DNA of 35,488 nucleotides. Origin: Halothermothrix sp. DTU029 (GTDB lineage: Bacteria; Bacillota; Halanaerobiia; Halanaerobiales; DTU029). The translations under genes were made by a program, and so were the position numbers. Below the pieces are notes generated by a model. It was not told the DNA's origin and did not search any database. It saw nothing but the letters and a program-made list of their open reading frames with translations. The stretch covers positions 1-35,488 of the forward strand of contig LFRS01000161.1 of assembly GCA_001512435.1 (NCBI GenBank), in the 5' to 3' direction. Shown in pieces: positions 5,401 through 34,330 of this stretch (the stretch's first letter is position 1; each line of letters begins with the position of its first letter).

Positions 5401-5460
5401 TACCTGATCCCGGTTATCTATTCTCTATTTGCCAGATTTGATAAAAAAGCATCAGCATAA
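2428..5460 (+). CDS. RND-family efflux transporter (AcrB/HAE1-like inner-membrane pump)
   Basis: Proton-driven inner-membrane exporter of 1010 residues, the usual length for AcrB-type pumps. The N-terminus (MKLSDLALKRPVTTVIMVLLVVLLG) is the standard first transmembrane helix, and two large periplasmic loops separate the two six-helix halves. The TM4 signature is GIGMLVDNSIVVLENIYRYR, with Asp398-Asn399 where E. coli AcrB has Asp407-Asp408. TM10 reads IIVNNAIVMVDYIN, with Asn where AcrB has Lys940. The start ATG shares a base with the adaptor stop codon (TAATG), so the three genes form one operon that ends at the hairpin starting at 5502. The pattern is closest to hydrophobe/amphiphile pumps rather than metal pumps, but the substrate cannot be read from sequence. 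Confidence 0.93.
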   Translation: MKLSDLALKRPVTTVIMVLLVVLLGLIAFNRVNVDLLPNITYPVAVVITTYEGVGPEEIETMVTRPIESAVATVTNINKLSSSSSTGSSMVMAQFNWGTNMDMATLDMREKIDLIEGYLPDEVSKPIIVQFDPSMLPVMQLGVASKLDMVSLKNFLEDVLVPRLERLEGVAQVNLTGGLEREILITVDQTRLNNYYTSFSNISNALLMENLNLSGGHVSRGNTDLLVRVTGKFASIEEIENILIPTATGNVLLKDIAEIKDTYKEATSISRLNGKESIGITIQKQADANTVAVSRRVQAELARIVEESELDLEFIPIMDQADYIELAIGNVGNNAIVGGLLAVVILLIFLKNIRSTIIIAVSIPVSIITTFLLMYFSNLTINMMTLGGLALGIGMLVDNSIVVLENIYRYRSEGYSKLEAAREGTKEVGMAIMASTLTTIVVFLPVVFMGGIAAEIFKELSLTVTFSLLASLIVAITLIPVMSAKILELKKEKKHILFEKIRKLYKKTLVWALDHRAIVLTVSLTLLLGSLALVPKIGAEFIPEMDQGQFTINIELPLGTNLEETNRITAQVEDLVLSIPEVEAIMANVGSSSEYLSTGTSSSDISSIIVLLKGLAERDRSTFDVMEELRQRLRIPGADISMVSNDLVAIAGSPVSIKVIGDNLEILEEQALIIREELAQIEGIREIEDNISEGRPELQLKINRELAAQFGLRPAMIASMVRSAISGEVVTRYEVEGEEIDVRLRLDKEDFSNPEKLKNLYLLSPSGALVPLERVAEFHLSRGAREILRENQVRYVNVTADLYNRNLADVMPEIQERLAKRLALPAGYQLEYGGEFQEIEAAFGDLYYALLLAIVLVYMVMASQFESFLHPLIVMFTVPMAAIGIFVALFISGHNFSIISFMGMIVLAGIIVNNAIVMVDYINTLRSRGHSVRQALEEAGPVRLRPILMTTLTTILGLVPMALGRGEGGELTAPLGVVVIAGLTVATFLTLYLIPVIYSLFARFDKKASA

Positions 5461-5501
5461 GGATACATTGGCAAGGATAAATCCAACTTGATATTATACA
5501 G

Positions 5502-5540
5502 AAAAAGGGAGATATTAAGGAATAATAGCTCCCTTTTTTT
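5502..5540 (+). terminator. Rho-independent terminator after the RND operon
   Basis: The stem AAAAAGGGAG (5502-5511) pairs with CTCCCTTTTT (5529-5538). A second stem, TATTA/TAATA, extends inward past an A-G mismatch, leaving the loop AGGAA. The T tract runs to 5540. It lies 42 bases after the RND stop codon. Confidence 0.8.
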
Positions 5541-5607
5541 CCTTTAAACAGGAATTATTCTTTGTTTGTGGAATGATATTAATAAGATAAACAAAGGAGG
5601 TAAAAAA

Positions 5608-6432
5608 ATGGCTATTCTCATGTCTGCCCTAACCCCCCATCCCCCCCTGGCTATCCCCCAGATTGGCCGGGAAAACCGGGAGCTAGTCAGGAATACCATT
5701 GAAAGTATGGAGGAATTGGCCAGGGAGATAGAAGCCAAAAAACCGGATCTCTTGATTACTATCAGCCCCCATGGGCCGGTTTTTGCAGATGCCATCAGTA
5801 TTCTTGATCTGGAAGAACTGGAGGGGGATTTTGCCGATTTTGCCTGCCCGGAAGTTAAGATACAGGTTAGAACAGAAGAAGGCTTTATCAAAAAATTGAA
5901 AGAAAATGCAGGCAGGGAAGGGATAGAGGTTATTACCCTTACAGAGGCTGACCTAGCCAGGTATCGTTATCCAGCCAGACTGGATCATGGTGTCATGGTA
6001 CCCCTCTATTTTATCCTCAATACTGGTCTTGATGTACCGGTAATCCCGATAACCATGGGGTTGCTGGAATATGAAAAACTATTTCGTTTTGGTGGGGTAA
6101 TTGAAAAAACCGTGGAAGGGCTGGGGCTTAATGCCATTATTATAGCCAGTGGAGACCTCTCTCACCGTTTGAAACCCGGGGCACCAGCCGGCTATAACCC
6201 CTATGGGGAGAAATTTGACCAGGAATTAATCGATTTACTGAGAAAAAGAGAGTACCGGGCTGTTCTGGAAATGGATCCCCTGGTGATAGAAAAGGCCGGG
6301 GAATGCGGCCTGCGGCCTATAATCATTATGCTAGGGGCTATAGCCAGGAGGAATTTCAGCAGTGAGGTCAAATCCTATGAAGGCCCCTTTGGTGTAGGTT
6401 ATGCAGTGGTAGGCTTTTACCCAGAAGATTAG
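5608..6432 (+). CDS. Class III extradiol dioxygenase-like (LigB/MEMO superfamily) protein, AmmeMemoRadiSam operon
   Basis: 274-residue protein of the LigB/MEMO fold. I start it at ATG 5608 behind a strong AAAGGAGG (5593-5600); an upstream in-frame TTG at 5566 has no ribosome site. The N-terminus (ALTPHPPLAIP) carries a His in the position of the first metal ligand of class III dioxygenases. ITISPHGPVF and SGDLSHRL are further conserved His-containing motifs. It is the first of three closely packed genes, followed by AMMECR1 and a radical SAM protein; these three families co-occur widely in bacteria and archaea (AmmeMemoRadiSam). In many bacteria this domain is fused to AMMECR1, but here they are separate genes 15 bases apart. 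The biochemical reaction is not established for the family; a ring-cleavage activity would be inference. Confidence 0.85.
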   Translation: MAILMSALTPHPPLAIPQIGRENRELVRNTIESMEELAREIEAKKPDLLITISPHGPVFADAISILDLEELEGDFADFACPEVKIQVRTEEGFIKKLKENAGREGIEVITLTEADLARYRYPARLDHGVMVPLYFILNTGLDVPVIPITMGLLEYEKLFRFGGVIEKTVEGLGLNAIIIASGDLSHRLKPGAPAGYNPYGEKFDQELIDLLRKREYRAVLEMDPLVIEKAGECGLRPIIIMLGAIARRNFSSEVKSYEGPFGVGYAVVGFYPED

Positions 6433-6447
6433 GAGGTAGTCAGGAGA

Positions 6448-6990
6448 ATGCAAGGACAGGAAAGCCTTTATGTTAAGCTGGCCAGAAGAACTATAGAAGA
6501 ATATGTCCTGGCTGGAGAGAGGGATCTGTATAAAAGGGTCCTGCCAGATGAATACCTGCCGGAGGAATTGCAAAAAAGGGCCGGAGCCTTTGTTTCCATC
6601 AAGAAAAAGGGGGAACTTAGAGGCTGTATTGGTACCATCCAGGCTACCAGGCCTAATCTGGCTGAAGAGATTATCAGTAATGCTATCAGTGCTGCCAGCA
6701 GGGATCCCCGTTTTCCTCCCATTAGCCAGGAAGAGCTGGCAGAATTGGAAATCTCTGTAGACATACTGGAAGAACCGGAAAAGGTCAGTGATCTCTCGGA
6801 ATTAGACCCTCTAAACTATGGAGTAATAGTGGAAAAGGGTTTTCGCCGGGGTTTATTATTACCTGACCTGGAAGGGGTAGATACAGTAGAAAAACAAGTA
6901 AGGATTGCCTTACAGAAAGCCGGTTTAAGTCCTTTTACAGATTTAAGGGAAGTTAATCTATATAGGTTTAAAGTAAATAGATATAAATAG
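6448..6990 (+). CDS. amrA: AMMECR1-domain protein (AmmeMemoRadiSam system protein A)
   Basis: 180-residue AMMECR1-family protein. The family hallmark LRGCIGTI is present near residue 60, followed by the conserved segment with [16 protein letters not shown] and [14 protein letters not shown]. The start ATG 6448 follows AGGAGG (6431-6436), which overlaps the stop codon of the upstream LigB/MEMO-like gene, so the two genes are probably translationally coupled. The radical SAM partner begins 15 bases after its stop. The human homologue is linked to a contiguous-gene syndrome, but no reaction has been assigned to the bacterial proteins. The conserved Cys in LRGCIG suggests a catalytic or binding role (inference). 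The symbol refers to the system naming rather than to a characterised gene. Confidence 0.9.
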
Positions 6991-7005
6991 GTGAGGTCAA
7001 GAGAG

Positions 7006-8013
7006 ATGTTAAAGGAAGCGGAGTTTTACCAGAGAAAAGCAGATAAGAAGGTGCTTTGTGAACTATGCCCCCAACAATGTTTGATTCCAGAGGGGAAAAG
7101 GGGCCTCTGTCAGGCCAGGGTAAATAGGGCAGGAAAATTATATACTGAAAACTACGGGAAGATCAGTTCTCTGGCCCTGGACCCCATGGAGAAGAAGCCC
7201 TTATATCACTTTTATCCAGGGAGCAAGATCCTCTCTGTCGGTACCTTTGGCTGTAATTTTTCCTGCCTTTATTGCCAGAACTGGCAGATTAGCCAGGAAA
7301 AACCCCCTTTACAGGAAATCTCTCCCCAGGATTTAGTAGAGATAGGAAAAGGCCATGGCAGCATCGGCTTAGCCTATACCTATTCTGAACCAGCTGTCTG
7401 GTTTGAATTTGTAAAGGAAACAGCAGAACTGGCCAGAGCAGAGGGTTTGAAGAATGTAATAGTCTCCAATGGCTATCTAAGTAAAAAAGCCCTGGAAGGA
7501 CTCTTACCCTATCTGGATGGGGCTAATATAGACCTGAAGGCCTTCAGGGAGGATTTTTATAGCAAGCTCTGCAGGGGCAGGTTGGAGCCGGTCCTGGAGA
7601 ATATAGAATTACTGGCTCGGAATGAAATCCATCTGGAAGTTACCACCCTGCTTATTACAGATTATAATGACAGCCTGGAAGAATTAGAAGAACTATTTGC
7701 CTGGCTGGCAGGAATCAATCCCGGGATACCCCTTCACTTAAGCCGCTATTTCCCAAACTATAGACTGGATAAGGCAGCTACCCCAATCAAAAGGCTCCTG
7801 GATGCTTATCACCTGGCAAGGGAATACCTGGATTATGTCTATATAGGGAATGTGGACCTGGCCAATGGCAGTGATACCTTTTGTCCCCAGTGTGGTTATC
7901 CAGTAGTTAAAAGGAGATACTATCATATAGTCAATCATTTGCGGGAAGGCCAATGTCCTGACTGTGGTTACCCAATCTACGGCAGCTATAACCTGTCCAC
8001 CAGCAGGCTGTAG
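7006..8013 (+). CDS. amrS: AmmeMemoRadiSam system radical SAM enzyme (PflA-like)
   Basis: 335-residue radical S-adenosylmethionine protein. I choose ATG 7006 (MLKEAEFYQRK) preceded by GAGG (6993-6996); a GTG at 6991 is in frame but lies before that site. The N-terminal Cys cluster CELCPQQC...GLCQAR is typical of the family. The radical SAM motif is CNFSCLYC (CxxxCxxC, residues 81-88), which holds a [4Fe-4S] cluster. GLAYTYSEPAVWFE and the conserved C-terminal pairs CPQCGYP and CPDCGYP suggest a second metal site, possibly zinc. It resembles pyruvate-formate-lyase activating enzymes, but the context with LigB/MEMO-like and AMMECR1 proteins marks the AmmeMemoRadiSam group. The substrate is unknown; modification of a partner protein is a plausible guess only. 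Confidence 0.92.
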   Translation: MLKEAEFYQRKADKKVLCELCPQQCLIPEGKRGLCQARVNRAGKLYTENYGKISSLALDPMEKKPLYHFYPGSKILSVGTFGCNFSCLYCQNWQISQEKPPLQEISPQDLVEIGKGHGSIGLAYTYSEPAVWFEFVKETAELARAEGLKNVIVSNGYLSKKALEGLLPYLDGANIDLKAFREDFYSKLCRGRLEPVLENIELLARNEIHLEVTTLLITDYNDSLEELEELFAWLAGINPGIPLHLSRYFPNYRLDKAATPIKRLLDAYHLAREYLDYVYIGNVDLANGSDTFCPQCGYPVVKRRYYHIVNHLREGQCPDCGYPIYGSYNLSTSRL

Positions 8014-8045
8014 ATAATACTGTTTTGAGCAATAAAACTTATGGT

Positions 8046-8780
8046 TTAGAAGCGGATAAAATCCAGGCCATAGACATAGCTTATATAAAGGGCATAATAG
8101 GTGGCCATAAAGATAACAGGGGGGATAATAGATTCCCTCCGCCAGTATAAGAGAATACAGATCAAGGCTACCAGTGTATTCATTAAAATCCTTTCTGGCC
8201 GGAATTCCAGCAGGAGGACTGAATACAGGAGGGCAGCCAGGAGTAAGGAAAAGAATTTATTAAAAAGGGTATAATTAAATAAGTCAAAGAGGATTACATT
8301 TAAGATAAACTGCTCACTGAGGCTGATAAAGATAGAAGCAAGCAAAAAAAGGCTAAAGGGCAGGAGAGAAGTAAGAAAAGAATCAAGATCATTTATTTTC
8401 AGCAGTCCTGCGAATTTGCCAGCAGGATGCAAGCTTAAGGGCATATTGATAAAAACTATTACCAGGATAAATAGGAGGATTCCCCCGGAAAGGGCAGGGA
8501 AAATTCCTTTTTTGAATTCCCGGAAGTCCAGGCCCAGGTCTTTAAATTCTACCGGGTATAAGGATGTTAAGTAAAAGACCAGGAGAGAGAAAAGGATAAA
8601 GCGGCCACTGATGGTAAACAGATAATGAAATAAGGCTGTCAGCAATTCATGTTTCAAATCCAGTTCTTTGCTAATTAAAATACCAAGAGCCATCAGGTAC
8701 CAGGAACCCAGGATGATTAAAATATCCTTGTAGTTCAAATACTGGATCAGTTTTTTCCTTTCTTCTTTGTCTTTGCTCAT
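8046..8780 (-). CDS. CPBP-like multipass membrane protein lacking the protease motifs
   Basis: 244-residue hydrophobic protein with about seven membrane segments after a charged N-terminus (MSKDKEERKKL). Overall layout and the C-terminal half resemble CPBP/CAAX-protease-like (Abi) proteins. However, the canonical EExxxR motif corresponds to EQFILN (residues 156-161), the FxxxH motif region reads LLEFRPE (190-196), and the HxxxN region reads IFMATYYA (223-230). None has the expected Glu-Glu, His or Asn residues. The start at 8780 has GGTGGTGA just upstream. It is the only minus-strand gene here, convergent with the radical SAM gene and divergent from glmM. The function is unknown; if the family link is right it is a pseudoenzyme. 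A different membrane family remains possible. Confidence 0.6.
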   Translation of the reverse strand: MSKDKEERKKLIQYLNYKDILIILGSWYLMALGILISKELDLKHELLTALFHYLFTISGRFILFSLLVFYLTSLYPVEFKDLGLDFREFKKGIFPALSGGILLFILVIVFINMPLSLHPAGKFAGLLKINDLDSFLTSLLPFSLFLLASIFISLSEQFILNVILFDLFNYTLFNKFFSLLLAALLYSVLLLEFRPERILMNTLVALICILLYWRRESIIPPVIFMATYYALYISYVYGLDFIRF

Positions 8781-8926: not shown

Positions 8927-10276
8927 ATGGGAAAATTATTTGGTACAGATGGTGTCAGGGGTGTAGCCAATAAAGAATTGACTGCTGAATTAGCCTACAA
9001 ATTGGGAAGGGCTGCAGCTTATTATCTTAGCAGGGATAGGAAGGAAAAGGGCAAAAAACCCTTATTCTTGATTGGAAAAGATACCAGGGTTTCCGGGGAC
9101 ATGTTGGAAGCTGCTCTGGCAGCCGGAATAAACTCTATCGGTATAGATGTTTTAAAACTGGGTATTATCCCCACTCCGGGAGTGGCATATCTAGCCTCAA
9201 TACTGGAGGTAGATGGGGCAGCTATGATATCAGCTTCCCATAATCCTGTAGAGGATAATGGTATCAAGTTTTTCACCGGTGAAGGTTTTAAACTTAGTGA
9301 CCAGATGGAAGATGAAATAGAAGATATTATTTTCAATACATATGATTGCCTCCCGAGGCCTATCTCTACAGAGATCGGTATTGCTAAAGATGCCAGTCAT
9401 CTTCAGGATAAATACATTGATTATCTATTGACAACAATAGATGTGGATTTTTCTGGTTTACGAATAGTCCTTGATTGTGCCAATGGGGCTGCCTACCGGG
9501 TTGCCCCGGAGGTATTAGCCAGATTAGGGGCCCAGCTGCTTGTTATTAATGATGAAACAGCCGGAGAGAGGATCAATCTAAATTGTGGGTCCACCCATCC
9601 GGAAGTGATCAGAGAAATGGTCCTGAAGGAAAAGGCAGATCTGGGGATAGCCCATGATGGTGATGCAGATCGGGTGATTATGGTAGATGAGCAGGGCCAG
9701 ATTCTCGATGGTGATAAGATTATGGCTATCTGTAGCCTGGCCTTGCTAAAAAATAATAAATTGCAGAAAAAGACCCTGGTTGCAACTGCCTATAGCAATC
9801 TGGGTTTACATGAGCTCCTCCGGGCTAATGGGGGCAATGTCGTTATCACAGAAAATGGAGACAGGTATGTCCTGGCAGAAATGCTGGAAAAGGGCTATAA
9901 TCTGGGAGGAGAGCAATCAGGCCATATTATTTTCCTTGATTACAATAAAACCGGTGATGGGGTTTTGACAGCTCTCCAGACCATTGCCATCCTGAAAAAA
10001 TCCGGCCAGAAATTAAGTGAATTGGCCAGTGTTATGAAAACCTGGCCCCAGAGATTAAGTGGTGTACCTGTAAAAGATAAATCCTGGGAGGATAAGGAAA
10101 GAATCAAGGATATTATAGCAAAAGCAGAGGCTAGATTAGGAGACCAGGGCAGGGTCTTTGTCCGGGCTTCCGGTACAGAACCACTTATCAGGGTGATGTT
10201 AGAAGGCAAGGATGATGCCCTTCTGGCAGAGCTGGAAAAAGAGATAATTACTATTATCGAGGAAGAGTTAAATTAA
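8927..10276 (+). CDS. glmM: Phosphoglucosamine mutase
   Basis: 449 residues, close to E. coli GlmM (445). It interconverts glucosamine-6-phosphate and glucosamine-1-phosphate on the route to UDP-GlcNAc for peptidoglycan and outer-membrane glycans. The active-site loop SASHNP holds the phosphoserine (Ser104, numbering from ATG 8927). The metal-binding loop is DGDADR with Asp244, Asp246 and Asp248, and the C-terminal phosphate-binding loop is RASGTEP. The N-terminal [15 protein letters not shown] is diagnostic for GlmM rather than other hexose mutases. A ribosome site AGGGG (8914-8918) sits upstream. In many Bacillota glmM follows cdaA-ybbR; here it stands alone, preceded by a divergent gene and closed by a terminator, and no glmS is next to it. 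Confidence 0.97.
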
Positions 10277-21730: not shown

Positions 21731-21759
21731 AGTTGTATAGGGTATTGGGGGTGTTCTTT

Positions 21760-22035
21760 TTGGGTAATTTAAAGCGGGTTATGATTAGTTTGCCTAATCA
21801 GCTTTTGCAGGAAGTGGATGGCTATGTGAAAAAAAGCAGTGGAAACCGCAGTGAATTTATCAGAGAAGCCATGAAACTCTACCTGGAAGAGAAGAAGAAG
21901 CAGGAGATCCGGGAACAAATGAAGACCGGGTACCTGGAGATGAGTGCCATTAATCTTCAATTAGCTGATGAAGGCATCAAGTGTGATGGGCCTACCATCT
22001 ATTTTTATGAAGAGAAATTGGCGGAGAGTGAATAG
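21760..22035 (+). CDS. mazE: MazE-type ribbon-helix-helix antitoxin (EndoAI-like)
   Basis: 91-residue antitoxin. I start it at TTG 21760 (read as Met, then GNLKRVMISLP), six bases after GGGGGTG; the in-frame ATG at 21781 would cut off the first strand, and TTG 21733 lies upstream of the ribosome site. Residues 4-45 form a ribbon-helix-helix DNA-binding domain (LKRVMISLPNQLLQEVDGYV, then a helix with GNRSEFIREAMKLYLEE). The tail KTGYLEMSAINLQLADEG matches the MazF-binding part of B. subtilis MazE. The size fits (B. subtilis has 93 residues). It lies three bases before mazF and in the classic alr-mazE-mazF type neighbourhood. Confidence 0.88.
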   Translation: MGNLKRVMISLPNQLLQEVDGYVKKSSGNRSEFIREAMKLYLEEKKKQEIREQMKTGYLEMSAINLQLADEGIKCDGPTIYFYEEKLAESE

Positions 22036-22038
22036 AGT

Positions 22039-22389
22039 GTGAATGTGAGTAGAGGAGATGTCTATTATGCGGATTTAAATCCTGTTGTTGGGTCAGAACA
22101 GGGAGGAATCAGGCCTGTTCTTATTATTCAAAATGATATTGGTAATAAGTATAGCCCAACAGTAATAGTTGCTGCAATTACCTCAAAAATCGATAAAGCA
22201 AAATTACCAACCCATGTAGAAATTGCTGCCAAGGATACCAGTTTAGAGAAGGATTCAGTTATTTTACTGGAACAAATCAGGACAATAGATAAGAAGAGAT
22301 TACAACGGCATGTTACCCATCTTGATAAGAGCATCATCGAGAAAGTAGATGAAGCCATTGAGATAAGCCTGGGGTTAATTGACCTATGA
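22039..22389 (+). CDS. mazF: MazF-type endoribonuclease toxin (EndoA)
   Basis: 116 residues, the same length as B. subtilis MazF/EndoA and highly similar along its whole length. It cleaves mRNA at a short single-stranded motif (UACAU for the B. subtilis enzyme; specificity not shown here). The catalytic Arg25 is in [12 protein letters not shown] and Thr48 is in AAITSKI. The start is GTG 22039 ([23 protein letters not shown]), which aligns with the known N-terminus. It follows mazE by three bases and shares its promoter. A terminator begins inside its stop codon. Confidence 0.96.
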
Positions 22390-22489: not shown

Positions 22490-23101
22490 ATGAAAGCAAT
22501 TATTAATGGAAAAATCTACACAATGGCAGGTGAGGTGATTGAAAAAGGCAGTGTCCTCATAGCTGATGGCAAGATAAAGGCTGTAGGTGCTGATCTTGAG
22601 ATACCTGCCGGGGCAGAGATAATTGATGCAGAAGGTATGGTAGTCTTCCCCGGTATCATTGATGCCCATACCCATCTGGGGATTGGTGAAGATGGATTGG
22701 GCTGGGAAGGCCGGGATTATAATGAGATGAGTGATGCTGTTACACCTCATCTCCGGGCCATAGATGCCATTAATCCCCGGGATGAAGGCCTGAAAAATGC
22801 CTACCTCAATGGGGTAACTACAGTAATGACTGGCCCTGGTAGTGCCAATGTCCTGGGTGGGGAAAGTGTGGCCATTAAAACCTATGGCCGGACTGTTGAT
22901 GAGATGATAGTCAAAAATCCTGTTGGTATCAAGGCTGCCCTGGGAGAGAATCCTAAAAGTGTCTATGGTAAACAGAATAAGTCACCCCAAACCAGGATGG
23001 CTATAGCTGCCTTATTGCGGGAGAATCTCCTCAAGGCCCAGGATTATCTGGCCGAAAAGGAGGAGAAAGAAAAAAAGGAGACCTCTTTAAAAGGGACCTG
23101 A
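22490..23101 (+). CDS. Amidohydrolase (imidazolonepropionase-like), N-terminal part before a -1 frameshift
   Basis: 203 residues that begin with a composite beta-sandwich (MKAIINGKIYTMAGEVI) and run into the metal-dependent barrel: FPGIIDAHTHLG gives the first two His ligands, followed by DAVTPHLRAIDAIN and GVTTVMTGPGSANVLGG. The start has GAGGAGG upstream. At 23071-23077 the zero frame is A AAA AAG, the E. coli dnaX slippery heptamer, with AAAAGGAGGAG at 23055-23065 before it. The stop TGA follows at 23099-23101. In the -1 frame the sequence continues directly as KKGDLFKRDLKMESLLP into the second half. A full enzyme needs both halves. Substrate unknown (amidohydrolases in this group are annotated only as hydrolases). 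Confidence 0.85.
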   Translation: MKAIINGKIYTMAGEVIEKGSVLIADGKIKAVGADLEIPAGAEIIDAEGMVVFPGIIDAHTHLGIGEDGLGWEGRDYNEMSDAVTPHLRAIDAINPRDEGLKNAYLNGVTTVMTGPGSANVLGGESVAIKTYGRTVDEMIVKNPVGIKAALGENPKSVYGKQNKSPQTRMAIAALLRENLLKAQDYLAEKEEKEKKETSLKGT

Positions 23102-23103
23102 AA

Positions 23104-23637
23104 ATGGAAAGCCTCCTGCCTGTTTTAAAGAAAGAACTGCCCTTGAAGGCCCATGCCCACAGGGCTGATGATATAATGACTGTTATCAGGATAGCCCGGG
23201 AGTTTGATATCAAGGTTACCCTGGAACATTGTACTGAAGGACATCAGATTGCTGAAGAAATAGCCCAATCCGGTTTTCCGGCTATTGTTGGCCCGACCCT
23301 TACCGGAAAAACCAAGGTAGAATTAGCTGACCGGGGCTTTAATACACCAGGTATTCTGGCTAAGGCTGGAGTCAGGGTAGCTATCATGAGTGATCATCCT
23401 GTAGTACCTACAGAGAACCTGCCAATTTATGCTGCCCTGGCTGTCAAGGAAGGAATGCCTGAAGAAGAAACCCTGAAGGCCATTACCATCAACCCAGCCA
23501 TCATTCTGGGTATCGAAGACCGGGTGGGTAGTATTGAAGCCGGTAAGGATGCCGATATAGTTATATTTGACGGCCATCCCCTGAATATACAGTCTAAAGT
23601 AAAAGGGGTCTTTATTAATGGTGAGAGAGTACTATAG
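23104..23637 (+). CDS. Amidohydrolase, C-terminal part after the -1 frameshift
   Basis: 177 residues completing the enzyme whose first half is at 22490-23101. It carries KAHAHRADD and TLEHCTEGH, supplying further His metal ligands, and IMSDHPVVP with the catalytic Asp. The C-terminal sandwich VGSIEAGKDADIVIFDGHPL is typical of amidohydrolases. The ATG at 23104 has AAGGGA seven bases upstream and lies two bases after the previous stop, so separate reinitiation is also possible. The reading frame is -1 relative to the first half. Neither half alone should fold into an active site. The arrangement could be frameshifting, reinitiation of a two-part enzyme, or a one-base sequencing error in a run of A. 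Confidence 0.8.
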   Translation: MESLLPVLKKELPLKAHAHRADDIMTVIRIAREFDIKVTLEHCTEGHQIAEEIAQSGFPAIVGPTLTGKTKVELADRGFNTPGILAKAGVRVAIMSDHPVVPTENLPIYAALAVKEGMPEEETLKAITINPAIILGIEDRVGSIEAGKDADIVIFDGHPLNIQSKVKGVFINGERVL

Positions 23638-33559: not shown

Positions 33560-34330
33560 ATGAAGATAAGGATTTTACAATTGATCGAAGGAGCCAAAAA
33601 GGCCCAGGGGTTAACGGTTATTATCGATGTTTTCCGGGCCTTTTCCCAGGCCTGCTATGTTTTTAATAATGGGGTAGAAAGGATAATTCCCGTCGGGAGC
33701 CTGGAAACTGCCTATGGCCTGAAGGAAAAAAACGGGGATTTTATCTTAATGGGTGAAAGAAAAGGCAAGATATTACCGGGTTTTGATTATGGCAATTCTC
33801 CTGCCCAGATCCAGGGGGTGGATTTTAGGGGCCAGACCCTGATCCATACTACCTCCAGCGGAACCCAGGGGATTGTCAATGCCCTCCAGGCTGATGAGAT
33901 TATAACCGCCAGTTTTGTCAATGCCCGGGCAGTGGCCAATTATATTAAAGAAAAAGAACCGGCAGTAGTATCCCTGGTTGCTATGGGAACAGCCGGGATA
34001 GAGCCTGGTATTGAGGATATCCTCTGTGCCTATTATATAAAAGACCTCTTGCTCCACCTCCCTTCTGATGGTAGGGAAATTACCCTGGAGATAGATGAGG
34101 AAGTGGCTGCTATCTATCAGGAGTTTACTGGAGGAGCAAGGCCAGGAGAAGAGGAAATCCGGGAAATTTTAAGGAAGACCAGTGGAAGGAGATTTTTTGA
34201 TCCAGCCAACAAAGACTGGTCTCCAGCAGAAGATTTTGCTCTTTGTCTCCAGTTTAACCGCTTTGATTTTATCCTGAAAGCAAACCATTATACAGAGGGA
34301 TTATATTATCTGAAGAAAGTGAGTATTTAA
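33560..34330 (+). CDS. comB: 2-phosphosulfolactate phosphatase family protein (ComB)
   Basis: 256 residues, the length of ComB proteins. IDVFRAFSQACYVFNNG, MGERKGKILPGFDYGNSPAQ, LIHTTSSGTQGIVNAL and ALCLQFNRFDFIL are characteristic of the family. In methanogens ComB dephosphorylates 2-phosphosulfolactate on the way to coenzyme M. Here no comA, comC or other coenzyme M genes are near, so the true substrate in this bacterium is uncertain; another phosphate ester is possible. GGAGATAGAAG lies before ATG 33560. It stands alone between the ACT gene and tsaE, which has its own promoter. Confidence 0.85.
   Translation: MKIRILQLIEGAKKAQGLTVIIDVFRAFSQACYVFNNGVERIIPVGSLETAYGLKEKNGDFILMGERKGKILPGFDYGNSPAQIQGVDFRGQTLIHTTSSGTQGIVNALQADEIITASFVNARAVANYIKEKEPAVVSLVAMGTAGIEPGIEDILCAYYIKDLLLHLPSDGREITLEIDEEVAAIYQEFTGGARPGEEEIREILRKTSGRRFFDPANKDWSPAEDFALCLQFNRFDFILKANHYTEGLYYLKKVSI

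Follow-up and report, generated by a model that had tools for sequence, protein, structure and literature searches.

A LigB-type AmmeMemoRadiSam operon in Halothermothrix sp. DTU029 and the natural losses of its parts in relatives

Contig LFRS01000161.1 of Halothermothrix sp. DTU029 (Bacillota; Halanaerobiales; assembly GCA_001512435.1) carries three closely packed genes, for a LigB-type protein, an AMMECR1 protein, and a radical S-adenosylmethionine (SAM) enzyme. These are the three families of the known, widespread AmmeMemoRadiSam cluster (TIGR04335, TIGR04336, and TIGR04337). Do these genes form one functional unit, and which chemistry could they share? We analyzed positions 1 to 35,488 of this contig (the window) together with relatives, in which labels beginning with L and G designate loci and genomes. 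The locus belongs to the AmmeMemoRadiSam system as an ordinary member, of a subtype in which a LigB-type protein with the class III extradiol dioxygenase fold occupies the Memo slot. The presence of three intact families, their fixed order, their joint inheritance, and the pairing of LigB with AMMECR1 as one or two chains are established or well supported; the linkage of the trio is strong but not absolute. The interest lies in the LigB subtype and in natural losses of single parts rather than in this particular locus.

The three genes follow one another on the forward strand, all with intact frames: the LigB-type gene (5608..6432; ATG start, 274 residues), the AMMECR1 gene (6448..6990; 180 residues), and the radical SAM gene (7006..8013; ATG start, 335 residues, with a GTG at 6991 as an alternative in-frame start). 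AAAGGAGGT stands directly 5' of the ATG at 5608. The two intergenic gaps (6433-6447 and 6991-7005) are exactly 15 bases long, and each contains a purine-rich ribosome site. The AMMECR1 and radical SAM proteins score above the curated cut-offs of their families (146.9 bits on TIGR04335, cut-off 99, and 324.6 bits on TIGR04337, cut-off 220). The remaining component, of LigB type, matches the Memo-based model TIGR04336 marginally and over half its length.

This component scores 160.9 bits on Pfam LigB (cut-off 26.3) versus 37.1 on Pfam Memo. Its match to TIGR04336 reaches 29.6 bits (cut-off 26) and is limited to residues 125-247; an evident Memo protein from this phylum (L181) reaches 129.6 bits on the same model. 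TIGR04336 was matched at an E value of 1e-3 or better by 18 of 20 LigB-type sequences of the order. The predicted structure of the LigB-type protein has a mean predicted local distance difference test score (pLDDT) of 95.7. In VIA-align comparisons, its best solved-structure match is TK2203 of Thermococcus kodakarensis (PDB 5hee; Z 33.9, 22% identity), for which no function is named in the records consulted. It is followed by aminophenol dioxygenases (Z 29.0-30.0), homoprotocatechuate dioxygenase (28.8), LigB itself (1bou; Z 26.3, root mean square deviation [rmsd] 2.8, 257 aligned residues), and MhpB (23.1). The likeness to human MEMO1, an iron- or copper-binding protein, is more distant (iron-bound form 7kq8; Z 20.5, rmsd 3.2, 232 aligned residues), with histidines probably in corresponding motifs. 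Because both the Pfam scores and the fold matches favor LigB over Memo, we conclude that the Memo slot is filled here by a LigB-type protein. A sequence-only reading of this DNA had called the first gene "LigB/MEMO-like"; its LigB part stands, and its Memo part has a marginal model match and a distant fold likeness behind it.

The same substitution looks like the rule in the phylum. A Memo match at an E value of 1e-30 was found in 4 of 299 phylum genomes, with L181 among these four, and was absent from the other 295, versus AMMECR1 in 228. Within the order, 27 weaker Memo matches occur in 26 of the 38 genomes, and all are positioned at the LigB gene adjoining AMMECR1. Outside the phylum, the control genomes of Thermotoga maritima, Methanocaldococcus jannaschii, Sulfolobus acidocaldarius, and Methanosarcina acetivorans matched the Memo, AMMECR1, and radical SAM models.

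The conserved residues of the LigB-type protein include those of a candidate metal site. H55, H127, H186, E232, and C233 are present in all 81 aligned rows (80 named loci, described below, plus the window) and H11 in 80, with one gap, an invariance partly built in, as the loci were picked with two peptide patterns covering the DHG and AGECG motifs. The same six residues do not vary in any of the 20 aligned sequences of the order, which were retrieved by way of the radical SAM gene and represent 20 of the 38 trio loci. In HMMER alignments, E232 aligns with a glutamate of two dioxygenases (8ihg and 8iq8). According to passages of a study of MEMO1 (PMC11081632), the metal ligands are H12/H61/E242 in LigB, H13/H62/E251 in aminophenol dioxygenase, and H49/H81/C244 in MEMO1. 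By sequence alignment, the 2-His-1-carboxylate residues of class III extradiol dioxygenases are present as H11, H55, and E232, which we infer to be candidate metal ligands. The invariant C233 adjoins E232, and this Glu-Cys pair marks the subtype: where a glutamate ligand is expected, the window's protein has E232-C233, in contrast to the cysteine ligand reported for MEMO1.

These observations bring to mind an ordinary O2-dependent extradiol dioxygenase acting on an aromatic compound, as fold and candidate ligands are those of the LigB, aminophenol 1,6-dioxygenase, and homoprotocatechuate dioxygenase group. However, the LigB-type protein falls well short of the curated dioxygenase cut-offs (e.g., 40.1 vs. 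315.95), is fused or linked to AMMECR1, and carries the invariant cysteine after the glutamate. Its hosts, presumed anaerobes, come from groups known for strict anaerobes, it is linked to an enzyme of the oxygen-sensitive radical SAM class, and no aromatic degradation family was found among the window proteins scanned. We consider a conventional dioxygenase very unlikely.

The linkage of the three families was examined in the best 80 of 563 LigB relatives found (the named loci), chosen with the two LigB peptide patterns; 33 of them were counted as Halanaerobiia from their record titles, one of these, L127, being titled only Bacillota. AMMECR1 is fused to or adjoins LigB in all 80. The radical SAM gene lies downstream on the same strand, with all three genes in order, in 75, and within 400 bases in 73. 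Among the other five, two loci stop at a contig end. In Orenia metallireducens (L103), only remnants of the radical SAM gene persist at 9479-9822, its middle part being gone, next to an intact fused LigB-AMMECR1 frame. The last two, L099 and L147, have no such gene there and a shorter radical SAM gene elsewhere in the genome. AMMECR1 and an above-cut-off radical SAM protein were each found in 38 of 38 genomes of the order, and 38 of the 47 radical SAM loci are complete unfused trios in the same gene order, from 37 genomes, one of which has two. At the nine others, the radical SAM gene is of a second kind and has neither LigB nor AMMECR1 beside it; this kind is the sole full radical SAM gene in the exception, G020.

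Co-occurrence in other genomes, proposed as a check by the sequence-only reading, extends to the phylum: AMMECR1 and the radical SAM gene are found together in 222 of 299 genomes, AMMECR1 alone in 6, the radical SAM gene alone in 1, and neither in 70 (Fisher p 6e-60, a statistic that ignores kinship). The radical SAM threshold used for these counts (E value of 1e-50) missed two genes that are truncated at contig ends (G204 and G236), and the genomes with AMMECR1 alone are four after this correction (G060, G213, G235, and G280). The phylum tables give 150 matches and 20 match-less genomes each, and the genomes with a match in full. The idea that the three genes might be conserved independently holds in part: these few genomes keep LigB-AMMECR1 alone, and in 3 of the 12 radical-SAM-positive genomes inspected the radical SAM gene does not adjoin the other two; otherwise co-occurrence is near complete.

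Several radical SAM paralogs were seen along the way. A second TIGR04337-like gene without LigB or AMMECR1 neighbors occurs at L049, L050, L051, L052, and L054, and also at L032, L035, L036, and L038. At the first five loci it adjoins a protein family of about 770-800 residues (557 in L050), of which the sole member scanned, in L051, has a spermine/spermidine synthase domain (PF01564). A short form of about 290-310 residues lies away from the trio in G020 (L036, 4983-5852), G009 (L035, 5070-6011), the genomes of L099 and L147, and G304; the C-terminal CxxC pairs are missing in the two sequences aligned. The short paralog possibly replaces the trio's radical SAM gene in G020 (apparently the genome of L099) and in the genome of L147. 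Contrary to this, both forms occur together in G009, and G304 lacks AMMECR1. In the single-contig genome G031, the trio is present twice on contig 1, at about 157 kb (L033) and 255 kb (L058), within copies that are identical over at least 8.2 kb and have a sharp boundary; either a large segment was recently duplicated or the repeat comes from the assembly.

As the four genomes with AMMECR1 alone mostly keep the LigB metal residues and the AMMECR1 loop LRGCIG, the LigB-AMMECR1 pair apparently serves some purpose in the absence of the radical SAM enzyme; the reverse is rare. Decay is visible in some copies. In copy 1 of G235 a histidine replaces E232, copy 2 of G280 reads E-C-S, and the second copies of G235 and G280 are more degenerate. 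A strict motif search had hinted that loss of the LigB motif GECG tracks loss of the radical SAM gene. We rejected this idea, as E-C-G is aligned in both classes of genomes.

The AMMECR1 loop could itself be the target of the radical SAM enzyme. In the window's protein it reads L57-R-G-C60-I-G62 and is accompanied by a D86-P-R-F motif. L57, G59, C60, and G62 are present in all 79 correctly extracted AMMECR1 rows; two further rows (L143 and L151) are mis-extracted LigB pieces and were left out. A modification of the operon partner, for instance at the R-G-C-x-G loop, giving a protein-derived cofactor or radical, would be in line with this conservation, with the strong linkage of the trio, and with the PflA-like core of the enzyme, PflA acting on a protein glycine. 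However, the main AMMECR1 copy of G213, G060, G280, and G235, all without a radical SAM gene, retains LRGCIG, and in Haloferax volcanii AMMECR1 occurs with no match to the radical SAM model. Since the loop persists without the enzyme, we regard its modification as possible but less likely, and partner modification in general as unlikely.

How the first two genes are joined varies among the relatives. Of the best 80 LigB relatives, 50 have LigB and AMMECR1 fused and 30 have them as separate genes. Among 150 phylum matches listed for AMMECR1, 136 lie in open frames of at least 440 residues, 9 in frames of at most 200, and 5 in between, a long frame being counted as a fusion without a LigB check on each. 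The genes are thus separate here and fused in many bacteria, in agreement with the sequence-only reading. In a tree of the joined proteins, the window sits in a clade of 23 separate-gene rows with a support of 99, and four changes between the fused and separate states are needed, at least two of which are forced by well-supported branches; this is a quick tree with weak deep branches. Because the state changed two to four times, separate translation does not define the functional unit, contrary to what had been proposed. The repeated changes fit a 1:1 LigB-AMMECR1 unit.

The radical SAM protein carries the SAM motif C83-x3-C87-x2-C90 within a PflA-like core (residues 49-280; Z 22.8, rmsd 2.6 over 224 residues vs. 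3c8f). Unlike PflA, it has an N-terminal segment with four cysteines (C18, C21, C25, and C35, conserved in 76 of 76 rows) and C-terminal CxxC pairs: C293/C296, found in 69 of 76 rows with gaps in the other seven, and C317/C320, read off the window sequence. Its core raises the alternative that it acts, like PflA, as an activase that installs a glycyl radical on an enzyme from another locus. In keeping with this role, activase models are matched weakly, and PF01228 is matched in 21 of the 38 genomes of the order. However, the activase scores are far below the cut-offs (best, YjjW, 68.8 vs. 250.2; PFLA, 52.4 vs. 231.75), and where a glycyl radical gene is found it can be adjoined by a different, weak radical SAM match (e.g., G000 contig C164). 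Moreover, the other 17 genomes of the order, all of which have the trio, lack PF01228, as do 11 of the 29 high-quality genomes. The enzyme is therefore not a dedicated activase of PF01228 glycyl radical enzymes and requires no PF01228 partner. This comparison covers the PF01228 class, which NrdD-type proteins may escape, and we hold an activase role in general to be very improbable.

At the window locus, the trio is set apart from its neighbors. Upstream, a resistance-nodulation-division (RND) efflux gene ends at 5460, and its operon is closed by a hairpin resembling a Rho-independent terminator on the forward strand (5500..5545), with hairpin and U run at about 5500-5540. The hairpin has a folding energy of -16.3 kcal/mol (z -3.26; -16.8 kcal/mol and z -4.07 for a 63-base version) and was picked up by the fold-energy z-scores and passed over by a simple terminator scan. 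No promoter-like site was reported on the forward strand between this hairpin and 5608, and no terminator-like fold was found at the 3' end of the trio (8005-8050; z 0.22). There, a convergent gene for an Rce1-like membrane protein (8046..8780, reverse strand; PF02517 25.6 bits, cut-off 22.4) ends 32 bases, stop to stop, from the radical SAM gene. The three-gene AmmeMemoRadiSam operon with its 15-base gaps, a hairpin before it and a convergent gene after it, can thus be read in the sequence as first described. Similarly, no candidate substrate gene was seen near the trio, and ARAGORN at default settings and Rfam at gathering scores found no tRNA genes or Rfam families in the window.

The description of an isolated operon is true of this locus and does not hold in general. 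In the order, rpsI is present in 25 of the 38 trio loci and is the next called gene upstream in 22; among the 13 loci without it, some start near a contig end (e.g., L060, L061, and L069). Among the named loci, rpsI is present in 23 of the 33 counted as Halanaerobiia and in 12 of the 47 others. Archaeal Memo genes, too, are located in an L13-S9 operon. The usual series runs from genes for Ecf-like ATPases and a CbiQ-like protein through truA, rplM, rpsI, the trio, a CAAX-like gene, and sometimes cdaA, to glmM and a glmS-like gene, the EcfA and GlmS names being assigned by eye. Five genomes of the window's family, from its genus and two more genera, have RND efflux genes upstream where most of the order has rplM-rpsI. 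The isolation of the window's trio is a local rearrangement. The cluster of the Rce1-like gene is represented at 26 of the 47 order loci and at 28 of the 80 named loci, and at none of the 47 named loci that were not assigned to Halanaerobiia; L056, another member, has no Pfam match. This gene is a common neighbor in the order, outside the system. The other frequent neighbors (ribosomal, Ecf-like transporter, CAAX-like, glmM, cwlD-like, and arg-like genes) vary by lineage, and no fourth conserved operon gene was seen among the order and named loci.

Could adjacency be positional only, three housekeeping genes being kept together beside a ribosomal protein operon? The presence of rpsI at the 25 order loci and in 12 of the 47 other named loci speaks for this, as synteny alone could preserve the trio. 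However, the genes are jointly present or absent over the 299 genomes (222 with both, 7 with one, and 70 with neither, kinship ignored), the first two underwent repeated fusion or fission, and the trio is intact where the rpsI context is gone, as in the window. A purely positional association is highly improbable.

We tentatively favor, at somewhat less than an even chance, an oxygen-independent modification pathway with a LigB-AMMECR1 core and a separable radical SAM step. LigB and AMMECR1 would form a 1:1 unit, in which LigB would hold a divalent metal, probably Fe2+, through H11, H55, and E232, and perform a metal-dependent, oxygen-independent cleavage or rearrangement. AMMECR1 may bind the substrate close to the conserved R-G-C-x-G loop. 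The radical SAM enzyme would make or consume the same intermediate in a separable radical step, and the end product may be a modified nucleobase, cofactor, or protein residue.

Several observations weigh against this pathway. The main copy in G060, G213, and G280 keeps the LigB metal residues without a radical SAM gene, and the radical step may lie outside the core reaction. In G066, G257, and G305, the three cases mentioned above, the radical SAM gene is absent from the fetched locus, which covers about 1.5 kb on each side. Among the controls, the AMMECR1 of H. volcanii is accompanied by neither a Memo nor a radical SAM match, and Thermus composti matches Memo and lacks AMMECR1. The proposed independence from oxygen is drawn from the anaerobic life of the hosts' groups.

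A bolder proposal, which we offer as speculative and rather unlikely, is that an extradiol dioxygenase fold became an oxygen-independent iron enzyme in anaerobic Bacillota. Held to AMMECR1 and with its Glu-Cys pair beside the metal, it would complete what a PflA-like radical SAM enzyme starts, perhaps on a nucleobase of the translation machinery, whose genes the operon often adjoins. In humans, MEMO1 and AMMECR1 would be the two remaining halves of this pathway. Burroughs and colleagues are said to have suggested the modification of a nucleotide base or an isoprenoid for Memo-Ammecr1 systems.

Elsewhere in the window, an amidohydrolase-like gene (22490-23637) is broken into two open reading frames that differ in frame, close to an A-rich stretch, and is either a frameshifted gene or the result of a sequencing error. 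Downstream of alr-like and dcd-like genes, a ribbon-helix-helix-like gene is followed by a MazF-like gene (21733-22389); the alr-like, dcd-like, and ribbon-helix-helix-like names were given by eye, and the MazF models are below cut-off. This is likely a toxin-antitoxin pair. The gene at 33560-34330 resembles 2-phosphosulfolactate phosphatase (ComB) genes and scores under the curated cut-offs.

In the open-licence PubMed Central literature, judged from titles, beginnings of abstracts, and passages, we found no reaction for, or direct study of, the bacterial AmmeMemoRadiSam system, no reaction for AMMECR1, and no paper on AMMECR1 with LigB. One paper (PMC7159879) credits Burroughs et al. 2019 with the "Memo-Ammecr1 systems", and another (PMC11081632) describes the primary molecular function of MEMO1 as not known. 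The compact three-gene bacterial version and its natural losses of single parts offer a tractable place to seek the reaction of MEMO1 and AMMECR1, and these losses show which parts need testing together. AMMECR1, like MEMO1, is also present in humans.

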